DNA of 64,000 nt. It comes from Streptomonospora mangrovi. GTDB taxonomy: Bacteria; Actinomycetota; Actinomycetes; Streptosporangiales; Streptosporangiaceae. Under the pieces are notes generated by a model. It had not been told where the DNA came from and did not search any database. It saw only the letters and a list, made by a program, of their open reading frames with translations. Below are positions 62,444 through 64,000 of this stretch, piece after piece (position 1 is the first letter of the stretch; each line of letters begins with the position of its first letter). Both the position numbers and the translations under genes were made by a program. Location: the NCBI RefSeq assembly GCF_027604915.1, contig NZ_JAJAQC010000005.1, positions 1 through 64,000 on the forward strand, read 5' to 3'.

Positions 62444-63037
62444 TCAGGAGCGGTGGCGCTCCACGAGTCTTCGGACGTCGGCGTCGTCCAGGGCCTCGGG
62501 TCTGCCCAGGATGTGCCGCACGGCGTCGCGCGGGCGCGCCACCAGCACGCGGCCCAGCCGCACCACCGGCTCCGGCAGGCGGCCGGTGACCAGGACCACC
62601 GGGACCACCTCGGTGCCCAGGACGCGCTCCTGGCGGGCGGCGTGGGCGGCGGCGCGTTCGGCGACCCGCTCGGCGGGGACTCCCCCGATGCGGCGGCTCG
62701 GCGACACGGGGTCGAGCCGCGCGAAGACGAGGTAGACGCCGCCGGGGCCGACCGCCAGGTAGCGGTGGGGGCCGTCGCGCAGCAGGCGGTAGCCGGCGCC
62801 GCGCAGCGACCGCAGGGAGCGGGCGCCGTCGGCGCGGGGGACGGTGTCCAGCAGCACATAGGTCAGCAGGGTCAAGCCCGCCACGAGCACGCCGGCCCGC
62901 CAGTCGAGGAAGCCCGCCGCCATCACCCCCAAGGCGGCCGCGACGGCGCCCCGGACGGCGAACCGCACCACCCGGGCGCCGGGCGCGGCGGAGGATGCCC
63001 CGGTTGACCCGGGCCGGCTGTGGCCCCCGCCCCCCAA
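62444..63037 (-). CDS. Membrane protein with degenerate NERD-like domain
   Basis: About 197 residues. Two close helices (VRGAVAAALGVMAAGFL and AGVLVAGLTLLTYVLLDTV) are followed by a domain resembling nuclease-related NERD (HRYLAVGPGGVYLVFARLDP, EVVPVVLVTGR). The Asp and ExK residues of active NERD nucleases are not seen, so it is probably non-catalytic. The start is TTG at 63037 because GGAGGTGATCG, an almost full match to the 16S anti-SD, precedes it. It is 200 bases upstream of the sigma-like gene on the same strand. Function unknown. Confidence 0.6.
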   Translation of the reverse strand: MGGGGHSRPGSTGASSAAPGARVVRFAVRGAVAAALGVMAAGFLDWRAGVLVAGLTLLTYVLLDTVPRADGARSLRSLRGAGYRLLRDGPHRYLAVGPGGVYLVFARLDPVSPSRRIGGVPAERVAERAAAHAARQERVLGTEVVPVVLVTGRLPEPVVRLGRVLVARPRDAVRHILGRPEALDDADVRRLVERHRS

Positions 63038-63314
63038 CGATCACCTCCGGCGCGATCCTCATCGGCAGACGCCCGCTCAGACCTGTGTTCAGCGCGCGGT
63101 TTTGGTCCCTGGCGGTTTCTTATGCCATCACCGAAACCCTCGGTATCGCAACGCGTTTGCCGAAATTTGGTCCGGACAGATCCCTGTATTCCGGGCACCG
63201 ACCGAGGCCCTCGACCTCCACTCCCACCCGGTGCCACGACGATCGGGTGGCAGCGCCGGACCGGTGCCTGCAACGGGCGGGTGGGTGAGGGCGGTCTCGG
63301 GCGGAGGGGTTGGC

Positions 63315-63343
63315 TTGACATGGGGCGGCGGGGCTGATCTGCT
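63315..63343 (+). promoter_or_regulatory. Candidate promoter of the Cys-rich leader ORF
   Basis: A perfect TTGACA (63315-63320) is followed after 17 bases by TCTGCT (63338-63343), a weak -10, which ends 7 nt before the ATG of the leader ORF. The spacing fits a leaderless transcript. Confidence 0.45.
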
Positions 63344-63350
63344 GTGACGC

Positions 63351-63467
63351 ATGCATCCGCGCACCCTTTCGGTTCGATCCACCATGGCTCGCAGCGCCGT
63401 CGGCGCTCGCCGTGTGGTCGGTGCGCCGTGCCTGTGTTGCTGTCCGCGCTGCCGCGACTGCCGCTGA
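63351..63467 (+). CDS. Cysteine-rich 38-residue leader peptide (uORF)
   Basis: ATG at 63351 to TGA at 63465-63467 encodes 38 residues ending APCLCCCPRCRDCR: six cysteines among the last 12. The rest is Arg/Ser/Val-rich without a domain. Short Cys-rich upstream ORFs that sense cysteine supply by ribosome stalling are known in mycobacteria. Here the ORF is followed by alternative hairpins and a T6 run (next entry). It lies 254 bases before the partial gene at 63721. It is probably a regulatory peptide rather than a functional protein; expression is inferred. Confidence 0.6.
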   Translation: MHPRTLSVRSTMARSAVGARRVVGAPCLCCCPRCRDCR

Positions 63468-63536
63468 TCCCAGCGGTGCGCTAGGCGCCGCGCCCTCGGG
63501 GCGTGGGCGCGTGCACCGCGTCCCGCTTCCTTTTTT
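63461..63536 (+). promoter_or_regulatory. Candidate transcription attenuator after the Cys-rich uORF
   Basis: Three stems can be drawn. CCGCTG/CAGCGG (63461-63466 with 63471-63476) overlaps the uORF stop. A stem of about 11 bp with one bulge uses 63485-63495 and 63499-63510. A third, GGGCGCG (63505-63511) with CGCG-T-CCC (63517-63524), is followed at 63531-63536 by TTTTTT. The second and third share 63505-63510 and exclude each other, as antiterminator and terminator would. Confidence 0.5.
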
Positions 63537-63720
63537 CCGGGTCCCCGGCTTCCGCGCCGCCGCGTCGTCTGCCTCCGGCCGCCCCGCTTTGTGCGCTCTG
63601 CTTCACGGTGGCCGGTGCCGACGCGCTGATGCGCGGACCCGAGCCGGTCGGCCCTTCTCCGACTCCGCGCCGCCGGTTCCCGCGTGTCCGGCGCCGCCCA
63701 GCCTGAAGGACCTCGACTCA

Positions 63721-64000
63721 TGTCCTACGACGCCGCCACCGCGACCGCCGCCGCGAGCACCACGGCCACCTCCACCGCGACCGCCACCGCGACCGCCGCC
63801 GCGACGAGCACGCTCGGCCGCTCCTCACGCGCCCTCGACCGCACCGCTCTCACGGTCGTGGTGCCGATGGTGCCCAGCCTGCCCGTCACCGACCCCGCGC
63901 CGACCCCGGCGCCCGCGTCCCCGGCCGCGCGGCCCGCCCCCGCCGCGCCGTCGCCCGATGGCATCGGCGACATCGTCTCGGCCGGGGAGGCGTCGCCCTA
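63721..64000 (+). CDS. Partial gene, N-terminus only (runs off the window)
   Basis: ATG at 63721 follows GAAGGACCTCGACTC and opens a frame that stays open to the last base. The first about 30 residues are almost all Ala and Thr (MSYDAATATAAASTTATSTA), then SSRALDRTALTVVVPMVPSL and a Pro/Ala stretch. No family can be recognised from this part. An antisense frame (63725-63973) is equally open, so coding sense rests on the start context and on the upstream leader ORF. If the Cys-rich leader controls it, it should belong to sulfur or cysteine metabolism. Confidence 0.45.

Follow-up and report, generated by a model that had tools for sequence, protein, structure and literature searches.

A conserved cysteine-codon leader ORF precedes the gene for a predicted cysteine dioxygenase-fold cupin in Streptomonospora mangrovi and its relatives

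A cysteine-codon leader ORF is located at 63351-63467 of the analysed window, 64 kb at the beginning of a contig of 255,762 bases from Streptomonospora mangrovi. It is probably a cysteine-responsive leader controlling the next gene, which encodes a cupin derived from cysteine dioxygenase (CDO). Judging from sequence comparison the regulator is most likely a translational attenuator, and by analogy with mycobacterial sulfur genes it would most likely let the cell tune the cupin gene to its cysteine supply. The leader ORF, its Cys tract and its promoter are conserved among relatives, whereas the terminator and the T6 run are not. The features are given below in window coordinates.

63315..63320 (+), the -35 hexamer TTGACA of the leader promoter, read from the sequence; the TTGAC spacing is kept in relatives
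63351..63467 (+), the leader ORF of 38 codons, MHPRTLSVRSTMARSAVGARRVVGAPCLCCCPRCRDCR, presumably leaderless, from the sequence and the conserved leader family
63429..63461 (+), the Cys tract TGC CTG TGT TGC TGT CCG CGC TGC CGC GAC TGC, the presumed stalling site
63461..63476 (+), a 6-bp hairpin over the leader stop codon, seen in the sequence and not conserved
63490..63536 (+), two mutually exclusive stems with 63505-63510 in common, followed by CGCTTCC and T6 (63531-63536), the proposed terminator
63539..63544 (+), GGGTCC, predicted from the single sequence only to pair with the Shine-Dalgarno GGACC(U) of the window species
63706..63710 (+), the Shine-Dalgarno sequence AAGGA of the downstream gene, from the sequence
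63720..64000 (+), the gene for a 230-aa protein, a predicted CDO-fold cupin without the three His ligands, ending outside the window with a stop codon at contig position 64412

The initial annotation had described a perfect TTGACA and a 38-codon ORF whose last 12 codons include six for Cys, and both were recovered from the sequence. The leader starts with the ATG at 63351, 36 nt downstream of the first T of TTGACA, and the stop codon occupies 63465-63467. This spacing is as expected if the transcript starts at the ATG, and the leader is probably leaderless. The last 12 codons are those of the Cys tract followed by CGC. Among the 416 short ORFs of the window (15-60 codons), the last 12 codons hold no Cys in 316, one in 83 and two in 16, and the leader is the only one with more than two. 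The start of the downstream gene had been given as 63721, one nucleotide too far; its ATG begins at 63720. Scanning the window against Rfam yielded 0 matches at gathering thresholds. A GC hairpin inside the leader ORF (63377-63419 in the window) recurs in relatives with other letters and in a shifted register, and is not claimed as an element. Its stability does not exceed that of synonymous recodings (mean z -0.49; below -1.5 in 4 of 22), and RNAalifold showed little covariation (-0.57 kcal/mol), with both sides changed in 4 of 13 pairs.

Streptomonospora belongs to the family Nocardiopsidaceae in NCBI. An 11-row profile of the downstream protein was searched against 200 genomes of the family and gave matches at E <= 0.001 in 51; 50 loci of this search were in hand (L021-L070). 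In 40 of the 41 strong-hit loci (E <= 2.7e-23; L021-L060, window included) a Cys-ending ORF of 31-39 codons precedes the homologous gene, with TTGAC 36-37 nt before its ATG. TTGAC is missing at -36 of the Cys-rich ORFs in L061, itself a strong hit, L063 and L064. Among the nine weak-hit loci, eight carry a Cys leader, six of them with TTGAC at 36-37 nt, and one with a canonical CDO gene has no leader. Two further weak profile matches, G194 and the second of G151, fall outside the locus set. The comparisons below use 47 loci, with gene starts picked by a Shine-Dalgarno rule; the set omits L037 (no Shine-Dalgarno sequence by the rule), L061 (no gene start assigned) and the leaderless canonical CDO locus L068. 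Cys codons clustered near the ORF end are conserved across the 47 leaders, bearing out the earlier suggestion to look for them in relatives. The closest relative, L011, keeps four of the six Cys codons of the window leader. The interval between leader and gene is 117-285 nt in the strong-hit loci measured. In addition, a pattern joining promoter and MHPR start, TTGACA-N30/31-ATGCAYCCGCGNAC, occurs once each in 10 of 61 genomes, in all 10 cases upstream of the cupin gene homologue by coordinates, and its reversed control had no match in the genomes listed.

Most leaders also share an M-x-P-R-T-like start and, in the middle, an AR..A stretch, as would fit a small functional Cys-rich peptide, for example a metal- or thiol-binding one, rather than a sensor. 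However, the number of Cys codons ranges from 2 to 6 across the 47 leaders (the window leader has 6) and their spacing is variable, the ORF lies directly before one gene with the spacing of a leaderless start, and the rare TGT codons also speak against a functional peptide, which we consider extremely unlikely. The codon choice was compared between the leaders, which come from many genomes, and 16 long ORFs of the window, which come from one: the 47 leaders use 148 TGT and 27 TGC, and the long ORFs 2 TGT and 52 TGC (Fisher p 9e-29). In 26 cluster representatives of the leaders the counts are 79 TGT versus 11 TGC, and in the window leader 2 of the Cys codons are TGT and 4 are TGC (p 0.046).

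The Cys codons are complementary to the Shine-Dalgarno sequence of the next gene in many relatives, which points to translational attenuation. In 21 of the 47 loci the predicted probability of pairing between the Shine-Dalgarno sequence and the Cys tract is above 0.5; in the other 26 it is not. Perfect complementary runs between the two are GUGUCCUUCGUGU in L063 (13 bp) and GUCCUUCGUGU in L066, L067 and L070. In L031 the leader and the Shine-Dalgarno context depart jointly, CCUUCAUG occurring with CAUGAAGG where CCUUCGUG occurs with CACGAAGG elsewhere. The complementarity exceeds that of synonymous recodings, made with the leaders' own codon usage, in 8 of the 26 cluster representatives (p <= 0.05) and not in 18, with a Fisher combined p of 6e-4 if the clusters were independent; since the clusters are defined by shared 8-mers and not by a tree, counts over them are not independent events. 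Five of seven further loci reached p <= 0.05 in the same test, and against dinucleotide shuffles 14 of the 47 loci did so. When leaders and Shine-Dalgarno regions were swapped between clusters, the matched pairs averaged -16.4 kcal/mol versus a permuted mean of -15.5 kcal/mol (p 0.023), a small cost and a weak effect. Three of the four other non-sister Streptomonospora loci (L021-L023) have GCUGUCC in the Cys tract complementary to GGACAGC at the Shine-Dalgarno site, a 7-bp pairing that is not beyond synonymous recodings (p 0.55, 0.14 and 0.14).

In the window species the match between Cys tract and Shine-Dalgarno sequence is just 4 bp (p 0.87 against recodings), with a pairing probability of 0.00. 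Its Shine-Dalgarno sequence is instead predicted, from the single sequence, to pair with 63539-63544, at a probability of about 0.93 for five pairs and 0.51 for the sixth. A modelled stalled ribosome leaves the openness of the site unchanged there, at 0.34 in the free RNA and 0.34-0.37 in the stalled state. Averaged over the 47 loci, the fold model gives an openness of 0.28 for the free RNA, 0.42 with a ribosome at a Cys codon and 0.41 with a ribosome at the stop codon. The two ribosome positions open the site alike, so that the direction of the switch does not follow from the fold model. On this comparative evidence, sequestration of the Shine-Dalgarno sequence by the Cys stretch appears better supported across the relatives than the terminator, though not in the window species.

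Based on these comparisons, we propose the following course of translational attenuation. Transcription would start at the leader ATG, as the promoter spacing suggests, and ribosomes would load on the 5' AUG and translate the Cys codons that close the ORF, for which the relatives mostly use the rare UGU. A shortage of Cys-tRNA would make the ribosomes pause at these codons; in many relatives a paused ribosome would free the Shine-Dalgarno sequence that is complementary to the Cys stretch, and the next gene could be translated. Ribosomes moving unhindered would leave the leader, and the Shine-Dalgarno site would close. We infer both the direction of this response and the use of the same type of switch by the window species, in which the partner of the Shine-Dalgarno sequence would be 63539-63544 and not the Cys tract.

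The initial annotation had read the locus as ribosome-mediated attenuation of the classical kind, in which the stem of 63505-63523 and the T6 run terminate transcription unless a ribosome stalled at the Cys codons favours the stem of 63490-63510. The idea of an attenuator stands, and the design with terminator and antiterminator is not supported. The hairpin over the stop codon and the two stems are present in the window, and the latter exclude each other, 63490-63495 pairing with 63505-63510 in one and 63505-63510 with 63518-63523 in the other. In addition, a permissive terminator scan of 62900-64000 found 2 sites versus 0.4 expected and flags the last stem. However, the pairs decay in the five genus relatives: out of six, the stop hairpin keeps 6, 5, 3, 2, 2 and 3 and the terminator stem 6, 2, 3, 3, 2 and 2 in the alignment of the window and the five relatives, the closest relative among them. 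The T6 run starts 7 nt past the last stem, with CGCTTCC between, and therefore this is not a canonical intrinsic terminator. A U-run directly after a conserved stem was accordingly not found. A T6 run occurs in the intergenic region of 1 of the 47 loci, the window's own, and five or more T in 2 of 47. Nor is such a run as rare as had been thought for DNA of this GC content, as 0.41 are expected on both strands of the window and 29 shuffles out of 100 contain at least one. The local fold (63344-63560) does not stand out either (z -1.33) and was equalled in 17 of 200 shuffles. Classical transcription attenuation is thus very unlikely in our estimate.

Rho-dependent attenuation was also considered, in which the position of the ribosome on the leader decides whether Rho loads on the C-rich untranslated stretch between leader and gene. 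C exceeds G in this interval: the mean skew over the 47 loci is 0.205, compared with 0.119 for the downstream genes and 0.046 (sd 0.118) for windows elsewhere in the same loci. In addition, a passage of Seliverstov et al. 2005 (PMC1262725) contains a weak prediction of this kind for mycobacterial cys leaders without terminators. However, the skew in the window is just 0.13, a value reached by 12% of the window's 238-nt windows, and Rho would leave the complementarity between Cys tract and Shine-Dalgarno sequence unexplained. We therefore regard the Rho-dependent mechanism as unlikely and retain translational attenuation as the preferred reading.

The protein encoded at 63720 has no match in Pfam or NCBIfam, and neither has the leader peptide. 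The gene of the protein is present in 11 of 41 genomes, its own included; named relatives of the protein include those of Streptomonospora alba and Streptomonospora sp. PA3. Among the 11 core proteins there are weak matches to Cupin_1 and Cupin_2, those to Cupin_1 in three proteins with a best E of 0.00063, and no CDO_I is listed. The remote family members L065, L069 and L070 match PF05995 CDO_I above the cut-off, and the core-family profile aligns with the proteins of four CDO-like relatives over 139 columns at 97% probability (E 7.8e-11). An AlphaFold model was available for the core of the Streptomonospora sp. PA3 relative, not for the window protein itself, with a pLDDT of 80.5. Foldseek comparison of this core with the PDB ranked 4z82 (rat CDO) first, with E 3.2e-6, a TM score of 0.63 on the query and an rmsd of 4.6. 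Seven of the first 10 Foldseek rows are named cysteine dioxygenase; the others include cupins and one plant peptidase entry, and further cupins follow closely. According to this model, the protein family has the CDO cupin fold. The gene is thus not one of sulfur assimilation, the target still being linked to cysteine through the cysteine dioxygenase fold predicted for its product. The gene after the cupin gene (MPDQQLSPDWPESVHPPG..., L009:2542-2919) is in tandem with it in the window genome; in S. alba and S. sp. PA3 (L121, L013) the two were judged by eye to converge, a local rearrangement.

The iron ligands were compared in an alignment of 47 proteins and two canonical CDOs. The window protein has none of the three iron-ligand His residues. 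Throughout its kind (41 proteins: 39 from strong hits, L062 and L063) the HxH motif is absent (41/41), and the third His is kept in 25. All three His ligands are intact in five of the six remote relatives, and Cys leaders also precede the genes of some of the remoter relatives in which the ligands are intact. The CDO-like protein of L066 has HES in place of HDH and is perhaps an intermediate between the active-looking and the ligand-free proteins. A true CDO with HDHAG is encoded separately, on contig 74 of the window genome (L101), and the filter found no Cys leader in the stretch upstream of it, which ends at the contig end.

A class-wide search with a CDO-like profile found matches in 146 of 296 genomes. 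A separate sample of 50 CDO loci of the class (L071-L120) was inspected for leaders. The 13 best of these 50 (L071-L083), all from one other genus that we take to be Streptomyces, have a leader ending in GCVCRPSC or alike, with TTGAC at -36 in 11 of 13. In 9 of these 13 canonical-CDO loci an exact CCGUCCU at the leader end faces AGGACGG at the Shine-Dalgarno site. Two more loci of this genus, L119 and L120, have another Cys leader before the CDO gene, and the CDO genes of this one genus of the same class thus carry at least two unrelated kinds of Cys-rich leader. In the other 35 loci the filter found a Cys-containing short ORF in nine (L089, L091, L095, L098, L099, L103, L112, L113 and L114). 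The one in L098, from the genus of the 13 and the only one of the nine with -37 spacing, may be real; the eight others were set aside by eye, leaving no convincing Cys leader in the other 34 loci of the class sample. Among open-licence papers, no account of a leader peptide before a cysteine dioxygenase gene was found.

The initial annotation had taken this type of leader to be isolated in such organisms. However, the NCBIfam leader model NF042934 finds eight matches in the window genome at E <= 1, of which one exceeds the cut-off; in 14 control genomes, 6 have matches at E <= 1 and none over the cut-off. Three loci of the window genome, L129 (C61), L131 (C56:218650-218703) and L133 (C46), hold ORFs of an RRHxDL...C type, with L129 over and L131 and L133 below that cut-off, and are perhaps part of a wider set of cysteine leaders. 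From the look of their neighbours, we take L129 to precede a symporter gene, L131 a (thiosulfate) sulfurtransferase gene and L133 a sulfite reductase gene.

A switch of the mycobacterial type would, by analogy, mean that the cupin is made when cysteine is short. This stands against the preferred reading, as a cysteine-burning dioxygenase would be expected on when cysteine is high; production at cysteine shortage is a misfit with such an enzyme and could fit an inactive, cysteine-binding descendant. It is possible, though on balance doubtful, that the leader senses cysteine and controls a dead CDO in Nocardiopsidaceae and their relatives: a protein which lost its iron but kept the Cys-codon switch, and which therefore may bind cysteine and act as a sensor or regulator in its own right. 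As active-looking CDO-like genes of other actinobacteria also lie behind such leaders, cysteine attenuation would then extend to the use of cysteine in addition to its synthesis, possibly with reversed polarity. If the polarity were reversed, ribosomes finishing the leader, and not stalled ones, would open the gene. The preferred reading would extend cysteine-codon leaders from sulfur assimilation to dioxygenase-type genes, add a leader family missed by the NCBIfam models scanned, and assign a role in cysteine homeostasis to a dioxygenase relative that is conserved and apparently inactive. The polarity of the switch would tell whether one leader type serves both cysteine saving and cysteine disposal.

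The polycysteine leaderless short ORFs of mycobacteria reportedly act by translation attenuation through the ribosome-binding site. The term translation attenuation is applied to them in a passage that cites Canestrari et al. 2020 (doi 10.1111/mmi.14498), and Cys leaders of mycobacteria had been proposed earlier, in a passage of PMC4633059. Similar to the mycobacterial ORFs, the window leader is a short ORF, probably leaderless, with Cys codons clustered near its end and a position upstream of the gene it would regulate. Unlike theirs, its target is a CDO-derived cupin gene and not one of cysteine synthesis or sulfate assimilation, and neither of the NCBIfam models that carry the names Ms5788A and Ms4527A matches the leader. 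Seliverstov et al. 2005 (PMC1262725) predicted Cys leader peptides for mycobacterial and Propionibacterium cys operons and for Bifidobacterium cbs. These resemble the present family in their runs of Cys codons near the stop and, in the mycobacterial set, in lacking a conserved terminator; as described there they differ in having biosynthetic targets, where a CDO-derived cupin is found here. A passage of PMC8079986 gives the S. lividans 'metL' leader upstream of metNIQ, which ends in ARCMCRRMCAF with three Cys codons near its end; from this ending, it could be taken for a cysteine leader as readily as for a methionine leader.

Among the NCBIfam leader models scanned, the window leader has no match up to E 10, NF042934 and its curated cut-off included. 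That model (cis_reg_atten, 'putative leader peptide') covers short Cys-ending leaders of similar appearance, and it matches the leader of L063 with 27.7 bits (cut-off 27) and a CDO leader of the other genus with 37.1 bits; by contrast, the window leader and four other scanned leaders of its kind are without a match. The downstream protein is like Cysteine dioxygenase type I (PF05995) in the modelled fold of its relative and in the profile match to CDO-like relatives, and unlike it in the missing HxH of its kind and in having no Pfam match of its own. The leader is of a known kind; what is new is its sequence family and its unexpected target, a cupin without iron ligands.
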